Positions 4,126-42,509 of a stretch of DNA of 44,218 nucleotides are shown here, piece after piece. Source of the stretch: Priapulus caudatus. Lineage: Eukaryota > Priapulida > Priapulimorpha > Priapulimorphida > Priapulidae. The stretch covers positions 1-44,218 of the forward strand of contig NW_014577583.1 in assembly GCF_000485595.1 (NCBI RefSeq). Reading direction: 5' to 3'. A program made the translations under genes and the position numbers. Every line of letters begins with the position of its first letter. Positions within the stretch are counted from its first letter, which is position 1. The notes beneath the pieces were generated by a model, which did not search any database, was not told where the DNA came from, and saw only the letters and a list, made by a program, of their open reading frames with translations.

Positions 4126-4140
4126 ATATATATGTAAAAC

Positions 4141-4180
4141 CTTGGAGTAATCATTCTGAAACTCCAATGATTACTCCAAG
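4141..4180. mobile_element. Hairpin insertion with 7 bp duplication (divergent ends)
   Basis: The arms CTTGGAGTAATCATT and AATGATTACTCCAAG flank a 10 bp loop. The element is flanked exactly by GTAAAAC at 4134-4140 and 4181-4187. The ends read CTTGGAG rather than CARGAG, so it may be a related family with the same duplication length. Confidence 0.75.
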
Positions 4181-4922
4181 GTAAAACATAGATCCATACT
4201 GCTACCCACTAGACGATAATATCAGGATTCATGTCGAAATTTAACCATTAATACGTACCCCCTCAGAAGGGATCGAGCATACATGCCGTGCTGTCTTCGA
4301 GTAATAGTCAGAGTAACAGTGCTGACTTTAGGTAGCTGGCCTGGACTGTGCGGCCATGCAGGTTAATAAGCTCATCACGTGCCTACTGAATCACACGTGC
4401 CTACTGAATCACACGTGCCAGCTACGATAGGCTAGCACCGATGTGTACACAGACATATGTACCAGGGTCCCGCACAGGACATGTTACACCGGTTTGCACG
4501 GGTAATTAAGCGCGCGATGCGTAAACATGATTCTGATTCAGCATTACATGGCCACGTGCATACTAGTATCAGGAGCATATCAGTGGTGAATGAAAACTAA
4601 TTTTGTTTTTATTCACATGTATTAATTAGTTTTAAAAATTATTAATTAAAATACATGTCGCAGGTAACTCACACAGAAATAGCGTTAGGACAATATAGTG
4701 TGGAGATATCGGTAATGTGCAGATTTTGACGTCTCACATCTTACTGGGTGTACAATCGTTTTTCTGCCTTTCTCCAAAATAAAAGTTTACTTTCTCTGCG
4801 GTCTACACGCTATAATCATTGTTCATATATGTTCTTCCTGAAGCGTTTTACAAAAGAGCAATGAACTGCGATAAATTTATGAGCAACTGCATAAATATAA
4901 TCTCGGATAACATGCATTATAA

Positions 4923-4962
4923 CAGAAGTAGATAATAGGGATAACCCTATTATCTACTCCTG
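4923..4962. mobile_element. CARGAG hairpin insertion (copy 3)
   Basis: The arms CAGAAGTAGATAATAGGG and CCCTATTATCTACTCCTG pair with one mismatch. The flanks ATTATAA and ATTAATG share only their first four bases, so the target duplication is decayed or absent. Confidence 0.65.
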
Positions 4963-5051
4963 ATTAATGATCCAGAAACAGACAAATTGCACTTCCGTGC
5001 ATAAATATACAGTCGTTGCCACCCATCGGGTAAGTACAGAATAAAAATAAT

Positions 5052-5086
5052 CAAGAGTAATATAATACATATATTATTAGCTCTTG
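5052..5086. mobile_element. CARGAG hairpin insertion with exact 7 bp duplication
   Basis: It starts CAAGAGT and ends AGCTCTTG, with complementary AT-rich arms carrying a few mismatches. It is flanked exactly by AAATAAT at 5045-5051 and 5087-5093. The right arm belongs to the GCTAATAAT subgroup. Confidence 0.75.
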
Positions 5087-7310
5087 AAATAATCAAATAA
5101 TTATTCACACACGCTGATTCTGCACCCTTCGCCTTGGTATAAAAGGCAGGGGTGGAACGTAGAGGTGAAAATGTATATGAGAGGAACGTAATTAAGGTAG
5201 AGAAAGGGAAGAGCGTAGAGGAGGTGCGGAAATAGGGGAAGGTCGCTGGTTAAAAAAAGGTAGGGATGACCGAGAGCGCAACAGCTGTTTACAAGATCGT
5301 TATTTATCGGTGACGATTTGCACCATCGTAAAACCCGTTCAGGGATTGCGGTAGAAGAAAGCAGGGGGACTACCCCGGGGGACTACAGCGCCCTGTCTGG
5401 GAGAGAGGCTTAGCACAGCACGTTGGGGGGGGATGGTGAATCGCCTGCGAACGATCTTCGAAAAATGTACCTTCGTTCTTCATCTGTAGCGCTGCGCTAG
5501 TCACAGTAAGTTATAAGAACAATCATGCAGTAGGATGAAGGGGCACATAGGATATAATAATACAATATAGCAATAACCATATAGATAAAGGTAATTATTT
5601 CCTGCTGAAGACACTATAAAGATGTAATTTTTCATTTGCTTTAAAATTTCGAAAGAAAACTGGATTCCCCTAGTTAGCATTTGGTCCCTTCTCCCAATAT
5701 GAGCTTGGCACCAACCTGATCCCACATGTCCGCAACCCTAACTCTCCCTCCAGGAGTAATAATTTACAATAATCTTTGGTGCCACCCCTGAATCCCCTCA
5801 GACGAATATCAAATCTGAACGTGTTTCTTACGCTCGGGCTAATACAAATGCCCTACCAGTGTAATATTTGAACACTAAGATCGAGCTAACCGACATTCGC
5901 CCGCGTAGGTGTTGCGCGGGTGCATTGCGAGCCGTATGTATGCAATTATGATAATGACATGGAATTATAAAATTTAAAGGTTTGCTTCACTTCACTCACA
6001 CACAAGCATTTCCCTTACTATATGCAGTTATAAATCAAACTTTTTTATTTGTGACAGATTTCTCGTGTGAAATATATGCCAGATAATATGGTGTAAACAC
6101 TAGATTAATTGTGTACAATGTATTAGATTTGTATACATGTGTCTCCGGATATAAGGTTGGCTGATCGAGTGCGTATAGAGATGGAGGTGGCCACGCTGAT
6201 GGGGTTCTAGCAAGTAGTTACGTTATCGACAGTCATTCACTGACCTCTTTGACATAGATTATTATATAGACGGTTTGGCATCTATTCCCGGTGATGGACA
6301 GCCATGGTTGAAGCGGAAAAGCCGAATAATTGTTTTAGGCCCAACGTTTCTGAGATTCATAATAATTATAATGTTAGTTTTGGTTGTTTAGTGTGATGTA
6401 CGAGGTATTTGTTATAGCTGTCCGTGCGGAAATACCGCTTTCCTGTAGAACGTAAATAGTTAAAAAGTATGAAGATTGTGATTTCAATGCAAATATATTG
6501 CGGTTTAAGTGTGAAGATGTTTATAAAATGATCGTGTGTAAATGTTTCAACGAAATTTTATCTCGTGGTTTAGTTTAATCAAATTTCTTTCGATTTTTTT
6601 TGTACAAACGTTTTTGTAATTTTATAAGAGAAAGTGATCAATTAACTTTACACGTGTTATTATGAATATTCAATTCGAATGTAACGGTGATATAAAAGAA
6701 ATACTGTTGGCCGAAAATCTTAATTTGTACTCAATATAATAATTTGGTCCCAGCATTCATTAGAGGTAGTTTACAAAGCGGTAGCATATCCGCAAAAAAA
6801 TAGGTAGCACAAAATCGGTAGCACATAAATCGGTAGCACAATCCGCAAATTTCGAAATTATTAGGTTGAGTGGCACAACTGCAACCAATTTTCCTGTTAC
6901 TGTTTGTACAAAACTGGTGGCACCTTGAATGACCACACTGGGAAGTCGTATTTCAGCTTGACAGTGGTAATCTGGAGTTCTATTCTGCAGTTATGAGTGC
7001 TAGCGCAACTATTAGTAGGCTTCACTATACGGTATCTCAGTATATACAGAGTTTGCTTAAATTTCTAATGGTTAGTAATACGTACCTCAACAGATGTGAT
7101 ATTTACATAAAATAAACTTTAAATACGCAGAATAATCATACACGTACACACGGTAAAATTCAACATGCTGGTAAATAAAATATGTTCAAAATGTCTTCGC
7201 TTACTTATGTCCCTGATTTTTTTTATATAAAAAAATATTAAAAATATTAAAAATTAGCCCTTCGGGGCAATTTTGTACATCACTGTTCCGGCCAGTGAAC
7301 AAGCGACCAA

Positions 7311-7348
7311 GACCACATAAACCCTCATAACACAGGGTTTATGTGGTC
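7311..7348. repeat. Perfect hairpin, GACCACATAAACCCT arms
   Basis: Two perfect 15 bp arms surround an 8 base loop. The left side is preceded by CAA, giving CAAGACCACATAA, which resembles the CARGAG ends, but the right end lacks the matching TTG and no target duplication is present. It may be a damaged member of the hairpin family or an unrelated palindrome. Confidence 0.5.
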
Positions 7349-7396
7349 ATAAAGCAATGTCTAGATACGGTTGACATGTAGCGAAATAAATATTGG

Positions 7397-7398
<2 letters not shown>

Positions 7399-7433: not shown

Positions 7434-7438
<5 letters not shown>

Positions 7439-9078: not shown

Positions 9079-9160
<82 letters not shown>

Positions 9161-9359: not shown

Positions 9360-9368
9360 ATATATATT
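8997..9368. repeat. Compound (CA)n-(TA)n-(GA)n and mirrored (CT)n-(AT)n
   Basis: Positions 9000-9115 are CA/CACACC repeats, 9116-9139 are TA and 9140-9161 are GA. About 165 bp later the order is reversed and complemented: CT (9326-9359), then AT (9360-9368). The (TA)(GA) and (CT)(AT) blocks form an inverted repeat around a unique AT-rich core. A CARGAG hairpin abuts the right side. Confidence 0.85.
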
Positions 9369-9370
9369 AT

Positions 9371-9408
9371 CAACAGCGTATAAAGAAGGCCTTCTTTATA
9401 CGCTCTTG
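9371..9408. mobile_element. CARGAG hairpin insertion with exact 7 bp duplication
   Basis: Two 19 bp arms meet with no loop (AAAGAAGG joined to CCTTCTTT). They start CAACAGCGTATA and end TATACGCTCTTG, with one mismatch. The flanks are exactly ATATTAT at 9364-9370 and 9409-9415. Confidence 0.85.
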
Positions 9409-9840
9409 ATATTATATATATATATAAATTGTTAACACAGTCTATACATATACGGCGTTTCTGTGTGACACTAAATATTTTTTACATAGCTTTATCAGAA
9501 TATGGTTTTTTAGCAAACATACCTTTGCTTTCCATGTACATATTACTATTGAGAAATAGTAGCTTGACCAGCCATATCAAAACGAATGCTGCTATTGTGC
9601 TAACCAGTCCCTTTTGTAGAAGAATCGACTGATTCGCCCTGCAACTTGAGGGTCGGCCACACCATGTTCAACTTATATGTGTCGTCACATCTGCTCTAAG
9701 TTTTCACCTGTGAAATGAAATTAACACCGATAGGAATACGCAACTCTGATTGACTTGGTAGGTACTGTGCCTACCCATTTTATACCAGGGGATGATTTTC
9801 TGTGCCTAACGGAAAAGTCTACAACTTTAATTTCTTAATT

Positions 9841-11425: not shown

Positions 11426-11735
11426 CCTACGGCCGTGACAGAGCAAGTACATCGTTAAAAGGGGGCTTATGTCGGGCTTGCGAGCCGACTCGACTGGAAG
11501 CAACTGGCTGCAATTCACTGCGACTGCAGTGCTTATAAGCCGGTCGTCTGCGACGCGACTGCCTGCGACTGGCCGCCACTAGTTGCTCGGAATAGAACAA
11601 TGGGCAACTGGACGCAACTATAGTTGCTGCCGATCGCTTCCAGTTGCTCGAAATCCAGTTGCTTCCAGTCGAGTCGGCTCGCAAGCCCGACATAAGTCCC
11701 CATTAACGATGTACTTGCTCTGTCCCGGCCGTAGG
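11426..11735. mobile_element. Foldback element with GCAACTG/GCGACTG core
   Basis: The arms at 11426-11507 and 11655-11735 are ~80 bp inverted copies with few mismatches. Both contain CAGAGCAAGTACATCGTTAA, CTTATGTCGGGCTTGCGAGC and CGACTCGACTGGAAGCAACTGG in parts. The core between them is made of degenerate GCGACTG/GCAACTG/CCAGTTGC motifs. Frames through it are incidental. Confidence 0.8.
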
Positions 11736-12006: not shown

Positions 12007-12400
12007 ATGCAGCATTTTAGCCGTTTAGAGACAACTGACGCGGATGCTCTATATTTATAAACAAGAGCTAATAAATACATGTATTATTAGCTCATGATAT
12101 AAAGCATTCTAGCCGTCTAAAGATAACAGATGTGCTTGCTCTATCAGTAGGCCTATGCAGCATTTTTGCCGCTATAAATATGGACAACAGACGTGCTTGC
12201 TTTATCGACATGCGCCATTCTAGATGTCTGTTGACAACGCGGATGTGTATGCTATCGATATGCAGTAACCTTGCCGCCCATATTATTATAAACAACAGAT
12301 CGACGTGCTCATTCATCGATATGAAGTACTCTGGCTGTCTATTGACAACGGTTGTACTTGCTGTATATCTAATTATCTATATACAACATTCTTGTCGCCC
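12007..12400. repeat. Degenerate ~50-60 bp tandem array
   Basis: Six to seven units follow the pattern ATGCAGCATTxTxGCCGTxT, GACAACxGACGxGxATGCT, TATCGAT. Units begin near 12007, 12103, 12166, 12219, 12269, 12330 and 12379. The first unit is about 40 bp longer than the others because it contains the hairpin at 12062-12096. Confidence 0.75.
12062..12096. mobile_element. CARGAG hairpin insertion inside a tandem array
   Basis: It starts CAAGAGCTAATAAATAC and ends GTATTATTAGCTCATG. The flanks TTATAAA (12055-12061) and ATATAAA (12097-12103) match at 6 of 7 positions. The neighbouring array units lack it, which marks it as an insertion. GCTAATAAT subgroup. Confidence 0.8.
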
Positions 12401-12460
12401 CCCCCCCCATATAGAAAACCCGGCCTGTGCACCCGCTGCGTTATTGTTGCTTATTAGTAT

Positions 12461-12524
12461 CAAGAGTACATAATAGAGATTTTGTTACATAATCTTGATA
12501 CATAATCTCTATTGTGTACTATTG
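12461..12524. mobile_element. CARGAG hairpin insertion (TACATAATAGAGA subgroup)
   Basis: The left arm CAAGAGTACATAATAGAGAT pairs with AATCTCTATTGTGTACTATTG. The loop carries a further partial copy of the arm. The flanks TTAGTAT and TTACTAT match at 6 of 7. The arm is identical over 18 bp to the ends of the large foldback at 28361-29057. Confidence 0.75.
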
Positions 12525-13786
12525 TTACTATGTACGCCCTATACCTGACGTGACTAGTTATATTGCATAGACATCGTGTTTTGTCAAAAATGTGATGATG
12601 ACGTCTCATATATTTCGATCTGAACTCTTCGGCTGACCTCGTGCGTGCGCGTTTGTTTGCTCGTTGTTTGTACCTAGAACCGTTGCTGTTGTGCTCCACG
12701 CTTATAATATAATAAATGTTATGCTATAATGACGGATTAGCTACCAACACAACACCAACGAACGCGACCAATTACTCAGCAATTTAAACACTTCCATCTG
12801 AATTCACAATCAAACTGCGCATGCAGCTATTCTGTATATACTCAATTGGCAACTTGGCGTCGCAGTGCCTTTCTCTCTGTTAAAACGAACCCTGTATCGA
12901 AGTTTATAGCATCGAAACCGCGATCGTGCATACTCACCGTGCGTATGTGTGAATAGACCCTACACGGATCTACATCCTCGCTAATCCCTGACGCGTCAGG
13001 CCACAGGTCCCGAAACGTTGCGGGTGCTACGTGCGTGTGTCACTGTCGCCGCCAGCGATCCTGCTCCTGATGCGAGCAGTGTCGCTGCAACTTCGTAAAT
13101 AGGCTAGTAGTCCCGGTATACAGCAGGTTATTCTTATAACTGCGGCGCCCCGCACGTGAATGCGAGCTACGAAGCTTGACGAAACAGAACATTGGTTCTA
13201 GTTAGAAGACCACGCAGGCAGATCGGAATGGGAACGCCGCGCTAATATGAACGCAAATGATTTGTCCATTCATCTGCAGGTTCGCGGTGAGGAAGCGCAT
13301 GCTGGAAAGCGCGTGACACATTTCACGGCGTGAAACAGTGTAATGGCTACAGACTGCAGACTGCAGACGCGCTGTACAGTTATAGATATCTATCTAATGG
13401 TCCGCTTCGTGCACGTATTTCGTGCGCTCGAGGGAATGAATATGCGCCGTGAATAACACGCACGGACTGAGGTAGAATGATCGATGCCGCCTTTTGATGC
13501 TCATGCACACTGAAGGAACAACGCCTCAAGGACAACAAAGCGTATTATGTTGAGTATCGACCGATACGGCCTACGGCATTTTACTAGCAGCATGCTGTTT
13601 ATTGCACAATATAACTATGGGCTGTTTTTACATTCTTTACTGTGTAGTATTAAAACGGATATAGCGCTCCGGAACGGAAGTATTTCACGTGCCGCCGCAC
13701 ATGCTTGTATGGTCTAACAAAATTGCCATCGCACTGCGTGCGGTTTCACAGTGTTATAAACTTATTAATCCTAGTTATTCTATCCG

Positions 13787-14345: not shown

Positions 14346-14721
14346 TAACGCGCATCATATCTTATGATAAAAAAACACAAATTTTATGTCGACATTAAAA
14401 TCATCATCACTGGCATTGCAAAAAACTGTGCAATGCATAATGAACAATAAACATTTCCTTACTTTCTTTGTCATTCAAGAAAGAATTTGTAGTCCATCAT
14501 GCACGATAATGGCTACATAACAGGAAATCTATTATGGAGAAGGACGCGTTTAAAATAGGAAAAAAATTGGAAGATATCATCCTGCGAACAAGGTTAGCAA
14601 ATTGGATGAAATATTTGCTGCTGTGAATGCAGAGCTCTGCCTACACTGACGCTGCTGCACAGGGAACCGCGCGCGGACTATCAATGTGATTCACCCGCCG
14701 ACTGAATATCCAGGATATAAT

Positions 14722-14763
14722 CAAGAGCTAATAATACCTAATAATAGGTATTATTAGCTCTTG
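14722..14763. mobile_element. CARGAG hairpin insertion with exact 7 bp duplication
   Basis: Perfect 19 bp arms (CAAGAGCTAATAATACCTA and complement) surround a 4 base loop. It is flanked exactly by ATATAAT at 14715-14721 and 14764-14770. This is the type copy of the GCTAATAAT subgroup. Confidence 0.9.
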
Positions 14764-14946
14764 ATATAATTATGTTATTCATGATACACAGCTAAGCATG
14801 TAGCTGAGCTGTTTTGCCATTTTTCCAGTATGACCTCGTGCTGGTGCATAATTTTAAATAGTGAAATATCAGGTTGGCGTAGGCCTATATCTTAATTTGT
14901 GTGGACCGTAATAAACAGACAGAACCATTTTTTACACTAATGTTAT

Positions 14947-14989
14947 CAGGAGTAAGATAATATAGATTATCTATATTATCTTACTCCTG
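14947..14989. mobile_element. CARGAG hairpin insertion with exact 7 bp duplication
   Basis: Perfect 21 bp arms, starting CAGGAGTAAGATAATATAG, surround a single-base loop. The flanks are exactly ATGTTAT at 14940-14946 and 14990-14996. The interior is not shared with any other copy in the window. Confidence 0.9.
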
Positions 14990-15289
14990 ATGTTATGACA
15001 AACGACGTGTAAAACCAATATAACGAACACACGTGATTGTGTTTACCTGGGTAAATTCTGCACGCATAAGCGGATCGATCTCTATATAGCTTCCTCCGGT
15101 GAACAGGCGATCGTCTCCTTCGGATATAATTTAGTAACTACAGGCATTATCCGTGGCAAAATTGCGCTTTTAATCCAGTCCGTATCAATTATTACCTAGA
15201 CACGTTAGCGGGCGTGCATACGCGTGGCGGGGTGCGTATGCGTAAGTGCGTTAGTGCGCGTATGAGCGCGCTCATGCATATCTACCCCA

Positions 15290-15770
15290 ACCACTGAATC
15301 TATTCTATATATAACTATATTATATAACTGTTATATATAGAGCATGCAGTGAGCCCATCAGCAGTACTAGTACATCACAACAACAATACCTCACCACCAT
15401 AGCCTTGGTGGAATACAACAGTAACCAATGGCAATGCGCTATGCAACATGCCAGAGCCGCTAGCATGCTAGGTCTAGTACTATAGCCCCAAACTCCACGA
15501 CAGGTGGCGCTCTCGCTCTGGCTCAATACTACTCAATACTTTGCTCAATACTACTCAATAATACTCAGTATTATCCTGAGTGTGGGAAGGAGGCGCTGCA
15601 TGCAGTTTGCTATAGCCCGCGTACTGTTGCCGCAGGCCTGCCTTCTCTGGCCTGCCTGCGGCAACTGTACGCGGGCTATAGTACTAGAGCTACTAGCATG
15701 CAAGAGCGTTATAAACATGCTCTGCACAGAGCATATAAATCAGAGCATATAATTTTGCTCTGCTCTGCAT
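15290..15770. repeat. Cluster of nested palindromes
   Basis: CTAGCATGCTAGGTCTAGTA (15459-15478) pairs with TACTAGAGCTACTAGCATGC (about 15681-15700). Inside it, GCTATAGCCCGCGTACTGTT (15610-15629) pairs with AACTGTACGCGGGCTATAG (15662-15680), around a GGCCTGCC centre. A run of ACTCAATACT repeats (15525-15565) and a hairpin insertion (15727-15762) are also present. No gene. Confidence 0.75.
15727..15762. mobile_element. CAGAGC hairpin-family insertion with 7 bp duplication
   Basis: It starts CAGAGCATATAAATCA, identical over 16 bp to the start of the hairpin at 39115, and ends TTGCTCTG. It is flanked exactly by CTCTGCA at 15720-15726 and 15763-15769. The duplication resembles the element's own ends, so this call is weaker than the AT-rich ones. 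Confidence 0.55.
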
Positions 15771-18703: not shown

Positions 18704-21700
18704 GCAAATGTCAAATATAACTCTGTCTGGTGTGTGCTGCAGGTTTGAGAAGCACAAGACACAGCACACGCGCATTCTGTTCCTCACGGAGGGGCTGCTG
18801 CTGCGGCAGATGGAGACTGACCCTGAGCTCTCTGCTTACACTCTCATCATTCTCGACGAGGTCCATGAGCGCCACCTACACATGGATTTCTTACTGGGAG
18901 TCCTGCGCTGTCTAGTACAGGTGTGAATTACAGGCTGTTATTGTACAAATGCCATAATGCTTTTTACTGAAAATGAATCTGCAATTCGTCTCAGGCAAAT
19001 TTGATATATATTTGTTTTAATTTTGGCTTTGTTACAAGCATGTGGCCATTGTGTTGTTTCAATGATAATGTAAGTGTAACTGTGTTTGTCTTGATATAAA
19101 ATGTATGTACAATAATATCAGGGGTTAATAATGACAAAATTTGTCATTATTAACCCCTGGTAATATCCATGAACACGTTTCTATTGCCATGATACAAAAT
19201 TGTGATTATACTGTGCTCTGACCTTGTCTATACTGTTTATCAATAAATTGAACAAATTATGTTTATTACAACAATTTCACCTCATCATGAAAAGGCAATA
19301 TTCAATAGTAATGCAGTGATCATTACTGGTATATCAGCAATTGGTTTCTCCGATTTAAAGCATCGAAAAGACCTAAAGGTAGTGTTGATGTCAGCTACCA
19401 TCAACATCGAATTGTTCTCAGAATACTTTGGCTCTGCCCCAGTTGTCAAGGTGCCAGGACGTCTATATCCAATCAAGCTAAACTATATGTAAGCCAAACA
19501 TATATATACTAACGTTGTAAACAGATATAGATATTTCCAGATCGTAATTCTAATTTTTTTATGCTGTTATATATGCAAAACTGGTAAAGGCTACATAAAA
19601 ACCCGTCAATTTTGTGTTTCATTAGGGAATCAAGATTATTCAGTTAATTGTATATGCCTGTATCACATTTCAGGCCTGCCAAAAATCCAGAGACGAAAAC
19701 TGAGCGATTGGATCCATCACCATATGTTCGCATTCTACAGATGATTGACAATAAGTACCCAGCAAGCGAAAGAGGTTATAGTCATACTAGATTTGGTAGT
19801 GTTGCGCAAAATTGCCATGAAGGTTGCTAGCTGACAATGGGCTTATTGGTAAAAAGATATTGTTAGGGGTATCTTACAATAAATATGTTGGTTTGTGATT
19901 GTATCAGGAATCAAATATTTATTTTGGCATGTGTGTCCCCGCAAAGTTAATCACAATCAATACAAAGGTGTCATTTTTGGTCTTAATATATTTTTGTATT
20001 GCCTCTGATGAGAAAATACAAGTAAAATGTCATTATTAAACCCTGAAAAAACGAGCATTATCCCTGAGAAGACAATATAATATATATATTATATTGCAAG
20101 AATATGAGGATAGTTGTATTCCCTATCAGGTGGTTAATATAATAGCCAGATTATAGCTTGAGGTCTGTGAATTCAGGTGATATGCTGATTTTCATGTCGG
20201 GGATGTCAGAGATCCAGATCGTGGTGGAGGCAGTGAAGGCATATGCAGAAAATAAGCAACGCTGGATCGTGGTTCCGCTGCATAGTGCACTCTCCATAGC
20301 TGAACAGGACAAAGTAGGTGTTTGAAGATGTCACCATGCACTGCCACGGTTGCATGTCCTATACTTGTGGTGTGAGTGGTGGTGTTGGTGCCCACTGAAT
20401 GCCTGAGAAATCAGTACATTGTATGTTGTAAACTACCTTAAGTTGGAGTGATTAGTGTAATAAAGGATATATATTTGGTAATTGTTGGAAAAGTAAAGGT
20501 AACGTAGAAAGGAGGGGAAAATGGTTGGAGAGAAAAGCATGGTTGTTCATCTAGCTCATAGGACAAATAAATAGTTTGGAGAAATTCGGAATGTATGAGT
20601 TATCATGGGGAGAAATTTTATAACAAGGCAAATTTTATATTGACTTATTTGGTTTTGAATTACCAGGTTTTTGATGTGGCACCAGAAGGAGCTAGAAAAT
20701 GTGTTGTATCTACCAACATTGCTGAGACGAGTGTCACAATAGATGGTATCAGGTATGTGTATGTCAGAAAAAAGATGTTCTCCTTACCCTCATAGCATTT
20801 CACAGTTATATGTCAGTATAAAATTGATACGGAAAAATGTGCCGCCATCTAGTATGAATAATAGGTACACATGATATGTTCTTTTAATTAGACAATATGG
20901 ATACTTTAGTATCACTGCTGTATAGCTTGTAGTTACTAAAATACCCATATACATACATGTATATACATGCGTGGATATTCGTGGGTGCATGTGAATGTAC
21001 ATAAATATATGTAAAAACATGCACATTACATGCTACATACAGCATGGATTCCTTATCACCAGAGTATGCAAATACACTGCAGAGATGCAATTAGCCTCAG
21101 TGTATACACCCAGAGTTGGGTACACTTTCCAGATAACGAAAATTTTTATTCCTGTTTTGTGTGTCACAAGTAAAGTATAGTTTATGTAATTATTGAAATT
21201 AACTGTTATGACTTGATTTGAAAACATGCAAAGTATAAAGGATTGTCTTCCTATTGCTGTTGAAGTGGGGATTTGCATATTCTGATTGCATTTCTGACTG
21301 CATAATGTCCACATATTTCAGGTTTGTCGTAGACTCTGGCAAGGCGAAGGAGATGAATTATTTCTCCCAGTTTAAGATGCAGCGTTTGCAGGAGTTCTGG
21401 GTGAGCAAAGCCAGTGCTGAGCAGAGAAAGGGACGAGCAGGTGAGCCTCCCTACCAGTACTTTCTCTAACTTAACACAAGTAATGTATATAGGTGTGCAG
21501 CTAATGTTAATATAATAGACCCAAATCAGACTCACACTGCTCTTCCTCTATTTGCGCTTGTTAATTTCGTTTCTTTGATTTAATTGTGACAAGATGTATT
21601 TTTGTATATGATGCATGTTGGTTGGTGAGAACATTCCCTGCAACATTTCATGACAGTATAAAACTATTGATGCTTTCTATCCGGGCTGTAAACCATACGA

Positions 21701-24700
21701 CTATGATGTCTAGCAGTGGGTGTTTCCTATTCAAGTTGTAAGCCATGCTACCGTAGTGTCTATAGCTGTGGCTGAGGTATCATGCTATTGGGATCAATAA
21801 CCATCTATATTTATTCTATAACATCTAGGCAGAACAGGTCCAGGAATCTGCTACCGTCTCTACACGGAGCAGGATTACGAAGCATTTGATGACTACACAA
21901 TGCCGGAAATTCACAAAGTGCCGTTAGACTCGCTCGTCCTGCAGATGATTGCCATGGGCTTGTCCGATGTCAGAACGTTCTCATTCATAGAGGCGCCATC
22001 TAGTGCTAGTATTGAGTATGCAGTGCAGAGTCTGAAGGAGCATGGTGCGCTTACACAAAGTGAAAAGCTAACGCCTATAGGTAACAATGATAGATTATGA
22101 TTATTATTATTATTGAAGCCTTATTACACCGGTACAATTTGCACTGAACAACATTAGAAACAGGTTATCTGCATACACACGTGCATAATAACGACACTGT
22201 ATGCGACTCTTCCAGGACAGATGCTGGGAAAGCTTCCCGTTGAAGTTGTCCTAGGAAAAATGCTAATTATGGGGTGCATTTTCAACATTGTGGAGCCGGT
22301 GACTACAATGGCTGCTGCACTGGCCATACAGAGTCCTTTCACAAACTATGCATACAGGTACAGCATGAGTTATCCACTGCTAGTAATACGAAGTGCATTT
22401 ACTCGATGCTTGATATTTCCACATTAACATCTGCATATCTGGCACTAATATCATAATTTGGCCACTACTCAGAGTTCAAAGTAAGTATCAGAGTTTTGCT
22501 CTCACACCTTTCCCTTGGCATTTTCTTGGTCAATTGCATGTCGCTTCAGACAATCTGTTATTACATCTTGCGATGAAGGCAGCTCACAGCCTAATAGAGG
22601 CACGATGTTACCAGTGTACGCACGCATCGGCCTGGTGCTGACGATGTGAAAAATATCAGTCTTCAATATATGTATTTGTATTTGAATTACATGCAATAAA
22701 GAATATATAAATAATAATAAATGATAATAAATGTCAAATGATAACAATAATAATATTCACCCCGGATGGTGTAAAAATTATGTCGAGCTTGATGTTATCG
22801 ATATGAAATCATCACATGCATGTATTATAAGCAATCTATGACATTCATTTCCACTCGGCCCACAAATGTTTCCGCTGTCCTCTCAATCAGGCAATATTAT
22901 ATACACATGCGCGCGTGTATGCGTGTGTGTGTCCTAGGGCGCTCTCCTAATTATACACACAGGTCTACTGATAAGAATTAATTACAGAAATCTATGCTGA
23001 GATACCCCTGACCATATTTAAATGCATTTTCAACACAAAATATAACTCCTGACGTGAGATATTAAGCATGTGCTAAAAAAGTAACGTAGCCAGATTGTGT
23101 ACTGACTGGTTTATGCAGCGGAGACCTTACATGCAAGGTCTGCTTCCTATTTCATAACTAAGTGAGGTCTACTGATGGAATATTATCATAGAAATCTATG
23201 CTGGGATAACCCCTCTTCACTTTAAATTCATAATTTTGGCAAGATATTCTTCTTCTTGAGAGATATTGCGCATGCGCGAGCACCGTTTCAGACGTGCAGT
23301 ACAGCCTAAATAAAAGTACGTAATATAGCTTGCTCCGGGAGCGAGGGGTGGGAAACTGAGGAAAGGTGGCAGGAAAGACAGCCGAGGGGCGGTGGAAGAA
23401 AAAGGAGGCTGAGCGTGCGACAAGGAAGACAAGAGAAAGGAAATAATGTTCTGTATGCCGCACAGGGACCCCGACGTCCTGCTGGCCCGAAAGAACCTCG
23501 AATCAAGCCACGGCGACTCGTTCACTCTGCTGAACTGCTTCAACGAGTGGCTGCAGCTGAAGGCGGGTCGAGGCACGTCGTCTCGACGCTGGTGCAAGAC
23601 GCGAGGTCTCGAGGAGCAGCGCTTCTACGAGATCACAAAGGTATTCGAGCGATGTGTGTCGGTAGTAGTAACAGGGGCGACGATGGAGGCCAGCTTAACC
23701 GCCGCCACCAAATCCGCAAAAGATATGTCTAAGTCTGTATCTTTATATAATTGTGGTGTGACCGCCGCCTAGGTGACTGATAAGCTGAGAGGAATTTAGA
23801 ATTTTTTGTGGTGGCAGTGGCTGGGTTGGGAGCAGCAGCAGTAGGGCAGTGGGGTAGTGGCAGCATGGGGGATTGTTGTGGTGGTGCCTATGCCTATCTA
23901 TATATATATATATATCTATATATGCCTATCGTATATACCATTGAAGCGTTGGTTGTTAGATGCACATGCATGCCACCGGTGTGCTGTAGGTAGTAATATT
24001 GCAGCAGTCACTTGCTGACCGTGCGTGTTGTATAGTCGTATGTGTGCATCCACAGCTGAGGCAGCAGTTCAGACAGCTTCTAAGCAGCCATGGGCTACTG
24101 GAGAAGAAGCCAGACCTGCAGACGAGCACAGAGCGGAGGCAGTACTACGGGGAAGTACAGCGGCTGAAGCGTATGAAGCGGGAGTATCACAGTGCCGCAC
24201 CACGCAAGCGCAAGGTCCTCAAGCGTGAATCCAACCACGAAATCGTAAGTTCTCTGTTGTTGCAATAAAATAACTGGCTGCTAACAGCCATCTGCTACTA
24301 GGAAGGTTAATAATGACAAATAATTTGTCATTATATTGTATGTATATAATTTGTATATTGTATATGTATATGTAATGTATATTGTATGTATGTATTGTAA
24401 TAATGACATAATAATTTGTCATTATTAACTGCTGATAACATGTCGTATGTGGATAAGGTTTCGTTAACTGCATTATTTAACATAAGAGTGTCAATTTAGT
24501 AGATGTACTTCAGACATTGCAATCTTAATTGCATCGATTTGGTTTTTCCCTGTTATATTTAATTGTCCCGTTGTTTATTTTGGTTGCGATTTCAGGAAGG
24601 GTTTCACGGTCACAGCAGTGACGAGGAGAAAGCTGTCGATATTCGAGATATCGATTTTCATCTTGCTCACAGCTCGTCAACACTGCGAGAGGAGGTAGAA

Positions 24701-28360: not shown

Positions 28361-29057
28361 CAAGAGTACATAATAGAGAAGAGTATGACACCGTTTTAAC
28401 AGCGTTTTGCATAGTTTTCAACTGTGACTATCAATATGTGAATAAATATATTCAAACTTTACCTTGTTTTCGTATATGATTCTCCTTTAATCATATGACA
28501 CCACCAATTTACCTGAAAATCGTATGTGTTCTTCAAAAAAGTTATTTGAATAGGACACGGTTTCACAGTTTCCCCAAACTTTTGCATCTCTGCCGCCAAA
28601 CTTGATATATCGGCGGCAGCACCAGGTTGTAACTACGGGTGCTGGGGGCTGTTGTGGATATTAAGTAAGCGCAGTAACAGAACTTGTTTCACTTCCTTAT
28701 CAGGAACACAATGGCAACACAGCTAAAATCAGCTGCTAGCTCGCCGTGAGCACATTTATTTTTAGCACGCTGGAAACGCTACACGCTGAATACAATTCGA
28801 TGCCTAATCTCCCCAGCAGCCCCCGCCGTCCCGTCATAGACAATAGAACACTAATCTTATAATAAACTATGGCCGAACAAATGTGACCATTTGTGAAAAC
28901 TATGTGAAACCGTGTCGTATTCAAAGAACTTTTTTGAAGAACACATACGATTTTCAGGTAAATTGGTGGTGTCATATGATTAAGGGAGAATCATAGATGA
29001 AAACTATGCAAAATGCTGTTAAAACGGTGTCATACTCTTCTCTATTATGTACTCATG
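28361..29057. mobile_element. Large foldback element with CAAGAGTACATAATAGAGA ends
   Basis: Two inverted arms (about 28361-28582 and 28880-29057) share AAGAGTATGACACCGTTTTA, TTTGCATAGTTTTCA and ACCACCAATTTACCTGAAAA. The left arm has an extra 55 bp (28421-28475) where the right has three bases. The loop of about 300 bp has no gene. The ends match the small hairpin at 12461 over 18 bp. Both flanks are TA repeats, so the duplication cannot be resolved. Confidence 0.85.
28441..28446 (+). terminator. DHX34: Likely DHX34 poly(A) signal AATAAA
   Basis: This is the first AATAAA after the stop (172 bp downstream) and is followed by T-rich sequence. It lies inside a 55 bp segment present only in the left arm of the foldback at 28361-29057. 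Confidence 0.55.
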
Positions 29058-29072
29058 ATATATATATAATAT

Positions 29073-29113
29073 CAGGAGTTAATGAGACAAACAATTTGTC
29101 TCATTAACTCCTG
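29073..29113. mobile_element. CARGAG hairpin insertion with exact 7 bp duplication
   Basis: Perfect 19 bp arms (CAGGAGTTAATGAGACAAA and complement) surround a 3 base loop. It is flanked exactly by ATAATAT at 29066-29072 and 29114-29120. It lies 15 bp from the end of the large foldback. Confidence 0.9.
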
Positions 29114-29120
29114 ATAATAT

Positions 29121-31198: not shown

Positions 31199-31310
31199 CT
31201 GAAAACATTAAAAGGACATCATTAGAAAATGGTAGTAACCAAGCAGAAACGTGTGAAGAGCGGGAAATGTATTTTTTGGAAAACGATACTCCTGCAACGT
31301 ATGGTATTAT

Positions 31311-31365
31311 CAAGAGCTAATAATACCTTAGCTCTTGGTAGCTTAAAAGGTATTATTAGCTCTTG
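31311..31365. mobile_element. CARGAG hairpin insertion with exact 7 bp duplication
   Basis: It starts CAAGAGCTAATAATACCTT and ends AAGGTATTATTAGCTCTTG, with an extra TAGCTCTTG in the loop. It is flanked exactly by GTATTAT at 31304-31310 and 31366-31372. It lies 112 bp inside the BCL-2 intron from the last exon's acceptor. Same subgroup as 14722. Confidence 0.9.
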
Positions 31366-31423
31366 GTATTATTGTAGCGAGAAACAAAGCTAAAATGTCT
31401 GTATCTTACTATAAATTGGAGAT

Positions 31424-36326: not shown

Positions 36327-36514
36327 GGCAACTGAAGCAGACTTTGATAAAGTAACTTGCTCAAGGGCATAGCGGCAGTGACAACGGTCCGACTTGAACT
36401 CAAAGACTACTACTGCTCCCACCACAGGTACAAGGGTACATCTTACCTAGATGCCTAGAACACCGGTTCAGCATCCCTAATCATAAATATCATCAACATC
36501 ATACATCGCCACCA

Positions 36515-37775
36515 TAGCTCTAGAACTATAGCCCTCCGCCCCGCCGCAGGGCTATAGAACATACTATGGCAATTTCCAGGGAGTAAGCATACAACTTTTT
36601 TGCAGTTAATTACTTAGAACTTCGGTATGCCAAATAAAGCACATTCTCTGCCGCACAAATGTCTTAAAGGGACAGTAGCCTCTAGGATTTTACTGCATAC
36701 AACTGTACTTACTGTATAACAAATCGTCTATACCACCACGTATTTGTTACCAGATACCTAATTTAATTGTTATAATTAATTACACATCAACGCTACGAAA
36801 TTTGAACGGCGCCATGACACCCGCGACCGTGCTGCCACCCCGAAAAAGTTGCGTATTTGACCATTTATTTTGCACGTTACAGACCGAGGGCTAATCACAA
36901 AAGTGCAATTATATTTATACCTAAATGCTATTTAACCGAACGATATTCATTTTAGGGCAAATTTATCCATATTATAACTGAAACTATATGTCGTTTATAA
37001 GATATTGCAATCCTGCTTTTAAATGAATAAATAAGAAACACCCTCGGTCTGTAGCCCTTGGCTGGAAAGTGGTTTTGCGCAACTTATCAGATCGTTCGCT
37101 TTGAGTGGCGCCACCGTCGTTGTAATCAAATTGTAGTCGTTAGTTTTAAAACATTTTTTAAAAATATTTCTAATGGTGATTGAACCATGAAACTTTTTAT
37201 GTAGCGTAACTATAACCTAAATTAGCTGAAAATAACCCTAGAACCTAGAGTAAACTCTCCCTTTAAGTTACTATAAACACTAAAATTAAACCGCAAACTA
37301 ACGCTTAAATGTTGTACTTGCTATATTACTTGTCGACGAAGATTGTTTACCAACTTGTAACCGCCATTTTTCAATGTATTTCCAAGTGGAGGGGTGGGCA
37401 GGTTGCACGCGGATGCAAACCGCCATTTTTCGTTGTGCAGCGCGAGCGTGGTTTGCAACCACGTGCAGCCTGCCCACCCCTCCACTTGGAAATACATTGT
37501 GCCCGCTCACTAGCGAAAAATGGCGATTACAAGTTGGTAAACAATCTTCGTCGACAAGTACCGGTAATATAGCAAGTACAACATTTAAGCGTTAGTTTGC
37601 AGTTTAATTTTAGTGTTTATAGTAACTTAAGACATTTGTGCGGCAGATAATGTGCTTTATTTGGCATACCGAAGAAGTTATTAACCGCAAAAAAGTTGTC
37701 TGCTTACTCCCTGGAAACTGCCATAGTATGTTCTATAGCCCTGCGGCGGAGCGGAGAGCTATTGTTCTAGAGCTA
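36515..37775. mobile_element. Full-length palindromic foldback, Mutator-like layout
   Basis: Without its nested insertion, this is one near-perfect palindrome of about 666 bp with arms of ~330 bp. Outer ends are TAGCTCTAGAAC and complement, then GCCGCAGGGCTATAGAACAT in both arms. The inner part, around 37262-37625, contains CCGCCATTTTTC and CCAAGTGGAGGGGTGGGCAG. Flanking repeats TCGCCACCA at 36506-36514 and 37776-37784 (12 bp if shared end bases are counted) suggest a ~9 bp target duplication. Long inverted ends plus 9-11 bp duplications are typical of Mutator-like elements, but no transposase is present, so the family is inferred. Confidence 0.85.
36668..37262. mobile_element. TTAA-flanked non-autonomous element nested in the foldback
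   Basis: A 595 bp insertion is bounded by TTAA (36664-36667 and 37263-37266). The ends AGGGACAGTAGCCTCTAGG and, inverted, AGGGAGAGTTTACTCTAGG match at 15 of 19. The opposite foldback arm reads straight through a single CTTAAG (TTAA at 37627-37630), which is the empty site. TTAA duplication is typical of piggyBac and a few other superfamilies. No coding capacity. Confidence 0.85.
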
Positions 37776-38068
37776 TCGCCACCATAACTTCAATCTCATT
37801 AAAAATCGACATCATGTATGTATTGGTAACCTAAATGGAAACGACATCAGAAATGAAAATCTGGTCGCAACTTTCCAAACACCAACCCGATTACCAGCGC
37901 AGTAGCATAAACCTAATCAGGGCAGTGTTTGGAAATTTATGACCATATTTTCGTGCACAATCCTAGTTTGGGACAGCGCAAATGTGTTTTTCACAAGTGT
38001 GCTAAACTAGGATTGGGCATCTTCATTACCGACCCCGTTCCAAGTGTCAAGTGTGTGATAATACCTAC

Positions 38069-38614
38069 CCAACCGCCATTTTTCCGAATCCAACCTCCAA
38101 GTTCAGTTGACGTATACTCTGCCAAACTGGTGACAAGTGCCTCTGTGTCTATATTTTTTGCTTTGCAATACTTCGCTATTTTCCCAGCAAAGGAATGCAG
38201 GGCGACAATTCGTCCCCAGTTGACTTTTCCATCACTGAAGACCTGCTGCGCGATGTTGCCGATGACTTCGTGACTGTGGTTTGCCAAGCCATTTTTCAGT
38301 ATGCTCATGACAAACTCCGAGAACTGCATTTCATGTTTACTGAGTATCTCATCACACAATCTCAGCATCGTCTTGCATGTCTTGTCCGGAGCCTCGCTAG
38401 CTTGCAAACCTCCCTTGTAGTAGTCGATGATGAAACGGGAAATCACGAGCTCCTTGTTCGGCGACCAATATCTATGTTCTGAAACGTGCGATCGTTTCTT
38501 GTTTCCTGCGTGTCCACAGAACGACGTATCCCTAGGTTCAACTTCAGTGTCAGTGATGCCACTGTCACTAGCCCTACTAAACACTTCAGAGTCACAGCTT
38601 GCTACAGTCGTCAT
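38069..38614 (-). CDS. BCL-2 family apoptosis regulator, first coding exon
   Basis: 182 residues start at the ATG at 38614 (context ACAATGA). With the 40-residue last exon the protein is 222 residues, normal for the family. Visible regions: BH4-like LVISRFIIDYYKGG, BH3 TMLRLCDEILSKHEMQFSEF, BH1 VFSDGKVNWGRIVALHSFAG, and BH2 LGGWIRKNGGW, where the exon ends at the donor GTAGGT. An intron directly after this BH2 tryptophan is a conserved position in animal BCL-2 genes. The complete NWGR and BH4-like region favour the pro-survival branch (BCL-2/BCL-XL/MCL-1-like) that binds BH3 proteins at the mitochondrial outer membrane; this is inference. The N-terminal ~40 residues are Ser/Thr-rich. Upstream noncoding exons are not visible. 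Confidence 0.93.
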
Positions 38615-39679
38615 TGTACTGCTTGGTATGCGAAACAAGCCCTGACAGCAGAATACAGAGAGCAGATTATGTATATGTTGTGCTCAGCAACAGCATAGAT
38701 AGGCACTGCGTACCGTACCACAAGCCACCGCACCGAGTAGTAGTACTAGTAAAGTAAACACTTCCAGCGCCGCAAATGACTCACAAATTTCTTGGAATCG
38801 TGACGTCTGACCATATACGTCTGACGATATCAAATGCAATTATCAATGTCAATGACTCAATACTCGACAATAGTGCAAATGCAAGCAATAATTAAACGTA
38901 TTTAACCATTATTATTCCGTGAAAACTTTAGACAAACAACATCAATCACCTTTTGGCGTTGTATTTCGCTTTGTCAACACACCAACAACAAAGATAACCC
39001 AAAATGCAACTGCAAGGTCTGTAATGGCGGCGATCCGCCATTGGCCGAACATGATATCATGTCTAAAAATAACTAATCGTCGCTAGCCTCTTGTTTGGCG
39101 TGTTCCAAATTTACCAGAGCATATAAATCACGGTGATTTATATCTATATGCTCTGATATAACCTCAAAAATATTAGTCTTCAAAGTCCAAGGTTCCTATA
39201 TCGAAGACGGAAAGAGACAAAGTTGATCAAATAGACAGATCAACACTGCAGATCGCAGTAGAAAATACCTCAAATTTGCAATTAACTAAAGGTGGTGAAC
39301 AACAGTAGATCGCGTCCATAGGCAGCAGGCCTGAATAAGCATCGAACAGATATTAATTAAAAAATACTCACACTGTTACTTCGCTTACACAACATACACT
39401 TTATTCATGTTAAATAACTACAGATTCATGCTCTATGCTCCGCTCGAAACTATTGCAGGCTCTATGATGCGAATTTCTACAAAGTTGTCTGACCACATTT
39501 GATCCACAAAAATGGCCGACCGGCGACCATGGCTACGCCACTAGCTGGAATGGCACAATTACACAACAAGACCAATTTTACTTCTAATGCTTTCTAGACG
39601 TCCACGAGGCATCTAACTTGCGTGCATAATGCAAATTATTGCAATCTAGTGCCGAATTTCAGCGAAAAAAAATGCCAAA
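38615..39679. other. Upstream of the BCL-2 gene; little recognised
   Basis: This should contain the promoter and any 5' UTR exon of the minus-strand BCL-2 gene; no core motif could be assigned. A hairpin lies at 39115-39155. Confidence 0.4.
39115..39155. mobile_element. CAGAGC hairpin of the same style
   Basis: CAGAGCATATAAATCACGG pairs with CGTGATTTATATCTATATGC then TCTG, with a small bulge. The flanks AATTTAC and ATATAAC match at only 4 of 7. It shares its first 16 bp with the element at 15727. Confidence 0.6.
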
Positions 39680-39870: not shown

Positions 39871-39904
39871 AAAAAAATGCATTTTCTAGAGACGAAATAG
39901 TTGA

Positions 39905-40230
39905 ACATCCGTCCATCCATCCAGCCAGCCAGCCCGGCCCCCCACTCCGAGGTCGGGGCCGGCAGCCAGCCCATTCATCCATTCTTCCATTCCACCCAAC
40001 AAAACTCCCGCCCACCACCCGATCCATCAGTCATCCAGTCTATTCCATTCATCCATCCATCCATCCATCCATCATCCATCCATCCAGTCCATCCATCCAT
40101 CCATCCATCCATCCATCCATTCGATCCATCCATCCTCCATCCCATCCATGCCATCCATCCATCCATCCATCCATCCATCCATCCATCCATTCATTCCTCC
40201 ATGCACCCATCCAGCCATCCACCCAATCAA
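39905..40230. repeat. (CATC)n tetranucleotide array
   Basis: About 320 bp of CATC/CATT repeats with interruptions. Frames reading Ile-His-Pro-Ser or Met-Asp-Gly-Trp repeats are artefacts of the period. Confidence 0.95.
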
Positions 40231-40689
40231 CTATCCACCAGGCCAAAACGCGGCTAAACTCCGATTTAAATAACTCGGATGGAATAGAACCGTAGGTCAA
40301 AAAGAAGATGGCTATAGGGTTTATCTCCAGCATCAATCGTGGGCTGAGCCTTCTACAGGAGATATAAGAAATAAAAGGGGGTGACCCAGACAGAAATAGG
40401 GTGGGTTAGATGAACATGGTAAAACAAAAGTTACAAAACCTTGGGGGTTTGGAGCTATTTATATGGACCATGAGCGGCGACAGATATGAAATAAAATTCA
40501 GTAATATACGACTCATTACCAAGACTAGACAGCGTTATCAGATTATCAAGGCGCGTACTTGTTTGTATTTGGCGGCGTACGTCCACACGTGTGCGTGTTT
40601 ACGCACTCGAGCGCGCGCGCGTATGGAAAGATTTGTACAAAAAACATAAAACCACTGAGGCAACATATAAGCATTAGGATTACGCTGGT

Positions 40690-40925
40690 AACAACTGGTT
40701 TTTAAGAGACTAATTCCAAGTTATAGACCCGGTTTTATAAAAAGCCTTAAAACTAGGTTTACGCTCTTCCCTTTAAGTTTAAAACCCGGATTTAAGCTCT
40801 TAATACCTAGTTTTAGGCGTAAAAACTATGGTTTTTAGACCCTTAAAACTAGTTTTAAGAGCATAATTCCAAGTTTAGAGCTCAAACCGGGTTTTAAGAG
40901 CTTAAAACTAGGTTTTAAGCTTCGA
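40690..40925. repeat. Palindromic satellite (TTAAAACTAGGTTTTAA), block 1
   Basis: Tandem ~18-20 bp palindromes of the form CTTAAAACTAGGTTTTAAG and CTTAAAACCGGGTTTTAAG alternate with small indels. The block stops at the purine minisatellite and resumes beyond it. Confidence 0.85.
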
Positions 40926-42040
40926 GGAATTTAGCTTCGATTGGCTAGTCATTGCTTATTGCTGTGTTCTGCGGTTGGGACTTGCGATACAGTTCCTGGC
41001 ACAGAAAACGAACAAGGAGGGAGCAGAGAAGCTCGTGGGGAGAAAAGGAGGGGGAAAAGGGGGGTGGCGGGGGGGGGCTGGGGAAGAGGAAAATGAGAGA
41101 AGGAGGGGTGAGGAAGGGAGCTGGTGGAGGAGGAGGGGGAGAAGCGAGAAAGCCTGTGTGGAGAAGGAGGAGGGGAGAAGCTGGTGGCGAGAAGGAGGAA
41201 GGGGAGAAGGCAGAAGGTGGTGGAGAAGGAGGAAGGGGAGAAGGAGGGAGAAGGAAGCTGGTGGAGGAAGAAGAGAATAAAGGAAAAGCTGGTGGAGAAG
41301 GAGAAGGGGGAGAATGAGGAAGGGGAGAAGGGAGAAGGTGGTGGCAAAAGAAGGGGGGAGAAACTGGTGGAGAAGGAGGAAGGGGAGAAAGGAGAAGCTG
41401 GTGGAGAAGGAGGAAGGGGAGAAGGAGGGGGAGAAGGAAGAAGGAAAGAAGGAAGGGGCGAAGGGAGCTGGTCGAGGAGGAGGGGAAGAAGGGAGAATCT
41501 GGTGGAAAGGAGGAGGAGAAAAGCTTGGGTGGGAAGGAGGAGTGCGGAGAAGCTGGTGGAGAAGGAAGAAGAAAGAAGGAAGGGGCGAAGGACTGCGTCG
41601 AGAAGGAGGGAGAAGGGAGAAGTGGTGGAGAAGGAGGAGGGGGAGAAGCTGGTGGAGAAGGAGCAAGGGGAGAAAGAAGAAAGCTGGTGGCGAAGGAGGA
41701 AGGGGGAGAAGGTGGGGGAGGAGGGGGAGAAGCTGGTGGAGAAGGAGGAGGGGAGAAGGAAGAAGTGGTTGAAAGGAGGGGGGGAAGTGGTGCGAGAAGG
41801 AGAGGAGAGCTGTGAGAGAAGAAGGAAGTGGGAGAAGGAGGGGAGAAGGGAGCTGGTGGCAGGAGGAGGGGAGAAGCGGGCTGTGTAGGGAGAGTAGGGC
41901 AGAAGAAAGGGCAGAAGGGATCGAGAAGGATGGGGAGAAACGCTGGTGGAGAAGGAGAAAGCTCGGTGGAGAAGGAGGAGGGAAAAGGGAGGAAGGTGGT
42001 GGAGGATCGAGGGGGGGAGAAGCTGGAGGTCAGAAGAGAC
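40926..42040. repeat. Purine-rich minisatellite (CTGGTGGAGAAGG units)
   Basis: After about 80 bp of unique sequence, roughly 1 kb of A/G-rich units GCTGGTGGAGAAGGAGGAAG follows. This is the reverse complement of the array at 77-1195. Long open frames encode Glu/Lys/Arg/Gly-rich peptides in one strand and Ser/Pro/Leu-rich peptides in the other; neither looks like a protein gene. Confidence 0.9.
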
Positions 42041-42360
42041 CTTTAAGCTATAAAACTGGGTATTTAGACCCTTTAAACGAAGTTTTAACGGTCTTTAAAA
42101 CCCTCGGTTTTAAGGTCTAAAACCCAGCATTTAAGGTTCGTAATACCTAGTTTTAGGGCTCGTTTAATTCTTAGTTTTAGAACTGAAACCGCTTTTAATA
42201 TCTTAAAAACCGGGTTTAAGGTCTAAAACAAGTTTTATGCCTTAAAACTAGGTATTAGAAGCCTTAAAACCCGGTTTTTAGAACTTAAAACCTAGTTTAT
42301 AAACCTTTCAAAACCCTGGTTTAATGACCGGTTTTATGGTCTAAAACTAGGTTCTTAATG
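42041..42360. repeat. Palindromic satellite (TTAAAACTAGGTTTTAA), block 2
   Basis: Same palindromic units as 40690-40925, continuing after the minisatellite. Confidence 0.85.
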
Positions 42361-42420
42361 ACATTAATGTATTCATTAGTCTGTGGCCGACCACTTCCGA
42401 TCAGCCTGTATACATAATAA

Positions 42421-42477
42421 CAGGAGCCTAAATAACGACAAAGCATTCATTATCATTTTGTCATTATTCAGCTCCTG
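42421..42477. mobile_element. CARGAG hairpin insertion with exact 7 bp duplication
   Basis: It starts CAGGAGCCTAAATAACGACAAA in two parts and ends TTTTGTCATTATTCAGCTCCTG. The arms pair with mismatches around an AT-rich loop. The flanks are exactly ATAATAA at 42414-42420 and 42478-42484. Confidence 0.85.
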
Positions 42478-42484
42478 ATAATAA

Positions 42485-42502
42485 CACGGAGTATCACTCC
42501 TG
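42485..42502. mobile_element. Minimal 18 bp hairpin sharing the neighbour's duplication
   Basis: CACGGAGTATCACTCCTG is 18 bp: a GGAGT/ACTCC stem with a three-base loop. It is flanked by ATAATAA at 42478-42484 (shared with the previous element) and 42503-42509. This gives three copies of the 7 bp repeat around two hairpins. Confidence 0.65.
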
Positions 42503-42509
42503 ATAATAA

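Follow-up and report, generated by a model that had tools for sequence, protein, structure and literature searches.

Short hairpins with CARGAG ends in the genome of Priapulus caudatus: probable excision scars of P-like transposons

The first 44,218 nucleotides of Priapulus caudatus contig NW_014577583.1 (positions 1-44,218, hereafter the window), part of an assembly of 385.2 Mb in 2952 contigs, contain a scatter of short hairpins that begin CARGAG, end CTCYTG and lie between 7-bp direct repeats. Are these hairpins transposons in their own right, or are they what other transposons have left behind? An earlier note on this sequence had taken them for a family of tiny mobile elements of 18-64 bp. 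We consider it probable, at roughly 0.83, that they are end-joined excision scars of P-like transposons and not miniature transposons.

In the mechanism that we propose, a P-like cut-and-paste transposon would insert with duplication of a 7-bp (sometimes 8-bp) AT-rich target near RTANTAY. At its exit the transposase, presumably of P type, would make a staggered cut, severing one strand at the edge of the element and the other ∼16-21 nt inside, and would thus leave terminal inverted repeat sequence as a single-stranded tail on both donor ends. These tails would then be sealed by end joining, probably of the polymerase theta type, either bluntly, through a short overlap, or with filler copied from the tails themselves. 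Because the two tips are inverted copies of each other, the product would be a hairpin, of 18-92 bp among those seen, between two copies of the target.

Hairpins and their flanking repeats

The window was scanned blind to the flanks, for the CARGAG/CTCYTG end motif with one mismatch allowed, combined with stem pairing. Nine hairpins were found, compared to a mean of 0.17 and a maximum of 1 in 60 first-order Markov sequences with the dinucleotides of the window. An exact 7-bp direct repeat flanked 5 of the 9, versus 1 of 72 swapped flank pairs. Exact repeats with lengths of 3-6 and 8-14 bp were found at none of them, and the matches of length 2 at 5 of the 9 are such as a shared AT at the target edges would give. 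A generic hairpin scan of the window with repeat lengths from 4 to 10 gave 11, 7, 4, 6, 1, 0, and 0 cases. All 6 cases of length 7 were sites already listed and all 7 of length 5 were listed sites one base off. The cases of lengths 4, 6, and 8 belong to AT runs, to the interior of longer stems, or to other hairpins (15615-15676, 36527).

All ten exact 7-bp repeats that the earlier note lists are present in the sequence, as are its three sites that agree at 6 of 7 positions (12062, 12461, and 19119). Two of the ten are doubtful, 15727 because its CTCTGCA repeat shares bases with the CTCTG motif of the element itself, and 4141 because its ends read CTTGGAG and not CARGAG. Absent from that list were the hairpins at 3150 (∼6/7 if the last G was lost) and 4923 (4/7), and an element of 697 bp at 28361-29057.

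Genome-wide, the exact form CARGAGN{0,30}CTCYTG has 4685 matches versus 876 for the reversed pattern, an excess of ∼3800, and its density is ∼1 per 82 kb. The window holds six such matches (3150, 5052, 14722, 26819, 29073, and 31311, the one at 26819 probably by chance), which is ∼11 times the genome average, and the density of one per 3 kb suggested earlier was therefore overstated as a figure for the genome. Five of the ∼14 hairpins in the window fit the exact form, and a genome total of roughly ten thousand scars may be extrapolated from this one rich window. A form with flanks included, ATNNNAT-CARGAG-N{8,32}-CTCYTG-ATNNNAT, has 1328 matches and its reversed pattern none. At the first 50 of these sites in contig order, the NNN of the two flanks was identical in 43 cases, one base off in 6, and further off in 1, versus agreement in 178 of 2450 swapped flank pairs; 47 of the 50 hairpins were distinct. 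Given this agreement the 7-bp repeats are target-site duplications (TSDs), in the genome as in the window, and the hairpins were rightly regarded as a dispersed family with transposon ends.

Conserved tips and variable centres

Two tip families were followed through the genome. For the family of CAAGAGYWCATAATA the pattern had fixed 15-nt arms, which hides shorter ones, and the yardstick for the tip ended at 21 nt. The arms are at most 30 bases apart in 142 hairpins and 31-61 bases apart in 40 matches; the two sets overlap slightly, since C35:452239 is counted in both, and the reversed patterns gave none. The analysis covered the first 50 of the 142 and all 40 longer members, some of these over 80 letters only. 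With strands merged, 48 of the 50 hairpins were distinct (49 unmerged), and 4 were perfect palindromes. Tip sequence persists for 15-21 nt in the arms (20 nt in 34 of 100 and 21 nt in 12), and the share of the commonest base declines from 86% at position 16 to 63% at 19, 50% at 20, and 39% at 21. The arms meet in a small overlap or a blunt join, or filler separates them, with centres ranging from a 2-nt overlap to 21 nt of filler, and trimming is often one-sided when the left and right tips are compared. In the second family, CAGGAGTCTATCA, with 234 hairpins of which the first 50 were analysed, 30 of 50 were distinct. Here the commonest base accounts for 88% at position 16 and for 66% at 17, or for 82% and 50% once a recurrent product is set aside. 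Conservation is thus lost 16-21 nt from the ends.

The centres also carry sequence found in the hairpins' own ends. The longest word common to a centre and its own tips had a mean of 6.4 nt versus 4.4 nt in shuffled centres, over 18 testable centres, 5 of which reached p<0.05 individually. By eye, the interiors of the 40 longer CAAGAGYWCATAATA members look like a patchwork of their own tips, with one exception described below. Copies of the hairpin's own junction between tip and TSD were found inside 3 of 16 window hairpins. The centre of 31311 reads TTAGCTCTTG followed by GTA, which is its own right tip with 3 nt of its own TSD. The filler of 12461 holds copies of both of its junctions (TCTTG/ATAC and TTG/TTAC), with four TSD bases each, and 3150 has one junction copy with only two TSD bases, the AT common to most targets. 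The same search gave nothing in 12 of the 16 hairpins and a 4-nt match only in 42421.

Footprints of this structure have been described in Drosophila. P transposase leaves 17-nt 3′ inverted-repeat tails on both donor ends (PMC2895639; PMC10983969 gives the same stagger of 17 nt), and end joining, in which polymerase theta is involved, yields a TSD, a tip, an overlap or filler, a second tip, and the second TSD, with larger insertions mostly templated nearby (PMC2895639). Like the hairpins, the junctions of Chan et al. (2010, PMC2895639) consist of a TSD and up to 17 nt of each tip, joined bluntly, through an overlap of 1-3 nt, or with an insertion. The Drosophila events had an 8-bp TSD and a single tip, arose at one locus in the laboratory in Rad51-deficient flies, and included some tipless junctions (PMC2895639), whereas Priapulus has TSDs of 7 or 8 bp, tips of 16-21 nt, many tip families, and thousands of copies in one assembly. 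In full-text searches of open-licence papers we found no published report of such genome-wide scars.

The source of the hairpins and competing explanations

A larger element with the same ends is present in the window. It was found with a tip profile, which had 53 matches versus 8-25 for 20 column-permuted profiles; a strict window scan for long elements with CARGAG ends and exact 7-bp TSDs gave none. The element is 697 bp long, its six-frame translation is broken by stops, and its flanks form an AT run in which an 8-bp repeat is exact and a 7-bp repeat is not. It is a copy of a dispersed ∼770-bp family (317 candidates, 40 scored) with 19 two-ended copies among 30 loci, the window copy included. 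Eight of the 19 have an exact 7-bp repeat (e.g. ATAGTAC, ATTGTAT, and GTGAAAC). In seven others the exact repeat is 8 bp long and lies in a run where purines and pyrimidines alternate, and four copies have neither. The scar at 12461 matches the 697-bp element over exactly its first 19 nt and no further. A longer element with these ends, of the kind that the earlier note had in mind, was thus found (697/∼770 bp), but a transposase within such ends was not found at the loci examined.

P-type transposase domains are encoded in the genome, with 64 matches to PF21787 and 14 to PF12017 versus none in 14 control genomes, and several of the transposases form multi-copy families of ∼88-98% identity. 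Under a relaxed RTANTAY that was chosen with the data in view, which lessens its weight in favour of a P source, 7 of 9 independent window TSDs fit at at least 6 of 7 positions versus 8% of the AT-rich 7-mers of the window, and TSDs such as ATAGTAC are GTANTAC-like in this sense. Galileo, of the P superfamily, has 7-bp TSDs (8 bp in three copies) with the consensus GTANTAC, and long foldback-like inverted repeats (PMC2775673, PMC4168063). The likeness to Galileo lies in the 7-bp, rarely 8-bp, TSDs, the palindromic TA-rich target, and the long inverted repeats of the 697/770-bp family; it concerns TSD, target, and inverted-repeat length, and no transposase was tied to the CARGAG ends. Set against a P-type footprint, the hairpins show target duplications (exact at 43/50 sites genome-wide and 5/9 in the blind window scan, with 8-bp cases too), limited tips with edges at ∼20-21 nt and at 16 nt, from a stagger that is presumed, diverse junctions (48/50 and 30/50 distinct, with the filler above), and a larger family in the genome with these ends and with TSDs of this length. 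The earlier hint at P-type transposons fits the 7-8 bp TSDs, the GTANTAC-like target, and the transposase domains, and the P superfamily is the likely source of the scars.

Several results weigh against this interpretation. A search of transposase loci that used inverted repeats, TSDs, and homology boundaries between copies found no CARGAG ends with a TSD around the P-type transposase genes at the examined loci: 30 loci of 2.6-3.4 kb gave a single weak end pair without a TSD (locus L012, 14/18, flanks agreeing at 3/7), and six wider loci gave no CARGAG end pair. The link to P consequently rests on mechanism and target and not on a complete element. The commonest scar tip has T at base 20, where the ∼770-bp family has A, and a parent with T at this position was not seen. 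The exact 21-mer CAAGAGTACATAATAGAGATG occurs at 53 places genome-wide; of 20 such ends examined, 17 are followed by another tip no more than 150 bp away, 15 of these with a TSD (at least 6/7, or 7/8), and none was seen to belong to a long element, three being undecided (the first continues into a 12-bp tandem repeat, the second is degenerate, and the third is unreadable). The joined flanks of eight scars gave no convincing paralogous empty-site match across the join. Tip length differs between families (16 versus ∼20 nt). Identical hairpins recur in the CAGGAGTCTATCA family and as a pair among the longer CAAGAGYWCATAATA members, and the hairpins at 5052 and 12062 are alike over their whole length, as copying of a hairpin would also give. 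The Drosophila junctions, finally, come from Rad51-deficient flies, and ∼29% of them have longer overlaps, mostly with loss of the tips (PMC2895639).

Among related searches, the 4141 segment has two matches of 77-80% identity that cross the join by 7 and 12 bases, and a decayed array around 12062 has a weak paralogous empty-site match of 72% identity. A TGAAAT-ended pair at one transposase locus (L068) was rejected as unrelated to CARGAG ends. In a viral collection there were three matches to CAAGAGCTAATAATACC, without hairpin or TSD in the 90 bases shown, and none to CAGGRGTTAATAATGACAAA.

Of the competing explanations, scars from a superfamily other than P that also cuts with a long stagger would account for tip lengths unlike the 17 nt of Drosophila and for the lack of a P transposase tied to CARGAG ends. 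Such a source nevertheless seems unlikely, as the 7- or 8-bp TSDs, the GTANTAC-like target, and the long inverted repeats fit Galileo, and P transposases are present in the genome.

Less likely still are internal deletions of any length, left by interrupted gap repair at larger elements through aborted synthesis-dependent strand annealing (SDSA). In wild-type Drosophila, gap repair is initially favoured and most assay products arise when incomplete SDSA gives way to end joining (PMC2895639). One clear case exists in Priapulus, C266:326795, a plain internal deletion of the ∼770-bp family that keeps ∼60 nt of one of its ends, and it is the only one of the 40 longer CAAGAGYWCATAATA members seen to reach deep into a larger element. 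Gap repair should spread arm lengths broadly, whereas the arms stop at 15-21 nt.

We regard miniature inverted-repeat transposons of 18-64 bp moved by a transposase, as first proposed, as slightly less probable again. Hairpin-forming miniature inverted-repeat transposable elements (MITEs) have inverted-repeat structure and TSDs, and their copies share an interior; the Priapulus hairpins mostly have only their tips in common, recurrent forms being the exception. The P-derived MITEs of Anopheles gambiae resemble the hairpins in being non-autonomous, with P-type ends and TSDs, but they measure 205-2450 bp, with 5-310 copies per family, median pairwise identities of 80.7-95.9%, and 8-bp TSDs (PMC1562414), whereas the hairpins measure 18-92 bp and their centres mostly differ among copies with the same tip. 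Real TSDs, shared ends, the similarity of 5052 and 12062, and recurrent identical hairpins, namely the GGGAATTCCC forms and a product that makes up 16 of 50 in the CAGGAGTCTATCA family, would suit mobile miniatures. That product, however, is the join expected when two 16-nt tips overlap by the 2 nt TA, and a 2-nt overlap is the commonest tip-retaining junction in Table 1 of the Drosophila study (PMC2895639). Same-tip copies are mostly distinct, left and right trimming differ, the filler comes partly from the hairpin's own ends and sometimes from its own TSD, and two transposase sites would hardly fit into members of 18-26 bp. Variable centres, one-sided trimming, self-templated filler, and a larger element with the same ends together argue for independent end-joining scars, and the amplification of 18-64 bp transposons is not supported.

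Chance hairpins, or a structural motif without transposon history, might be suspected from the 876 reversed matches to the loosest form, but the blind window count, the 1328 flanked sites versus none reversed, and the TSD agreement reject them for the class as a whole, and single degenerate sites may still be chance.

Features of the window and significance of the putative scars

Features of the window, with positions counted from its first letter. Scars are assigned under the excision interpretation; where two TSD copies differ, both are given.
Feature	Position	Strand	Description
Putative scar (hairpin 14722)	14715..14770	.	TSD ATATAAT, CAAGAGCTAATAATACCT tips (42 bp), TSD
Putative scar (hairpin 31311)	31304..31372	.	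Tip as in the 14715 scar, different centre; TSD GTATTAT
Putative scar (hairpin 12461)	12454..12531	.	Tip CAAGAGTACATAATAGAGA, 64 bp; TSD TTAGTAT/TTACTAT (6/7)
Putative scar (hairpin 12062)	12055..12103	.	Begins CAAGAGCTAATAA; TSD TTATAAA/ATATAAA (6/7)
Putative scar	14940..14996	.	Near-perfect 43-bp palindrome; TSD ATGTTAT
Putative scar	9364..9415	.	38 bp; left tip CAACAG, right tip CAAGAG; TSD ATATTAT
Putative scar (hairpin 5052)	5045..5093	.	35 bp; TSD AAATAAT
Putative scar	19112..19166	.	41 bp; tip CAGGGGTTAATAATGACAAA; TSD ATAATAT/GTAATAT (6/7)
Putative scar	29066..29120	.	41 bp; TSD ATAATAT
Putative scar (hairpin 42421)	42414..42484	.	57 bp; TSD ATAATAA
Remnant	42485..42509	.	18 bp, CACGGAGTATCACTCCTG, then a third ATAATAA
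Putative scar with filler (hairpin 3150)	3143..3210	.	TSD AATATAT/AATACAT (6/7 if the last G of the right tip was lost)
Hairpin with other ends	4134..4187	.	CTTGGAG..CTCCAAG, 40 bp; exact 7-bp repeat GTAAAAC
Hairpin	4923..4962	.	Begins CAGAAGTAGATAATAGGG, 40 bp; no clear TSD (4/7)
697-bp element	28361..29057	.	Ends CAAGAG/CATGAG; 60-bp near-perfect terminal inverted repeats; further 110-bp inverted arms
Single tip	4107..4125	-	19 nt, CAAGAGCACATAATAGAGA; matches the 697-bp element with one mismatch; no partner end found
Doubtful hairpin	15720..15769	.	CAGAGC..GCTCTG; CTCTGCA repeats overlap the end motif

The remnant that follows the 42421 hairpin is either a second insertion and excision in the TSD of the first scar or a repair duplication. 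A tip resembling the right end of the 4923 hairpin recurs genome-wide with varied centres.

Elsewhere in the genome, scars stand side by side at C3:572274-572364 and C27:661219-661300, two with different tips on one TSD copy in one case and two identical ones 51 bp apart in the other. One 61-bp scar occurs on two contigs in opposite orientation (C378:194221-194281 and C1241:9717-9777), probably because the assembly contains it as a duplicate or haplotype copy. At C189:204960-205310 (locus L078) a scar tip runs directly into a tandem array whose 12-bp unit, GATGATAGAGTA, resembles the sequence of the tip; perhaps the array is a minisatellite born of a repair event.

The window holds further repeats. 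Inverted arms of 154 nt (92%) span 1263 bp at 36514-37776 with CGCCACC on both flanks, possibly another transposon with a 7-bp duplication, and a different short inverted-repeat element with 82-nt arms (95% identity, 310 bp in total) lies at 11426-11735. In a decayed element at 24300-24434, each of the two ends forms a hairpin of the tip TTAATAATGACAAAT. Hairpins at 15727-15762 and 39115-39155 show another type of end, CAGAGCATATAAATCA, with doubtful duplications, and the palindrome TGATTTCGTAACGAAATCA is densely repeated at 1611-2953. A predicted Bcl-2 family protein is encoded at 37991-38638 on the reverse strand; it matches a Priapulus caudatus record at 100% identity across 85% of the query.

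What is known of P-element footprints comes from laboratory crosses, one event at a time; here thousands of such scars would stand in one animal genome assembly. On balance we favour the view that P-type excision has left a natural archive in the Priapulus genome, with, by extrapolation, on the order of ten thousand scars, each of them an independent record of the joining of a double-strand break. Some of the source transposons have no intact copy that we saw, and of extinct ‘ghost’ families nothing but the tips of 16-21 nt may be known. Repeat finders may take such scars for a zoo of ultra-short MITEs. If the interpretation is true, scars rather than elements are the main trace left by this group of transposons, and it would become measurable how often a DNA transposon left its site and how often it stayed, what stagger the transposase of each subfamily made, and what spectrum of junctions germ-line break repair produces in a phylum with little genetics.

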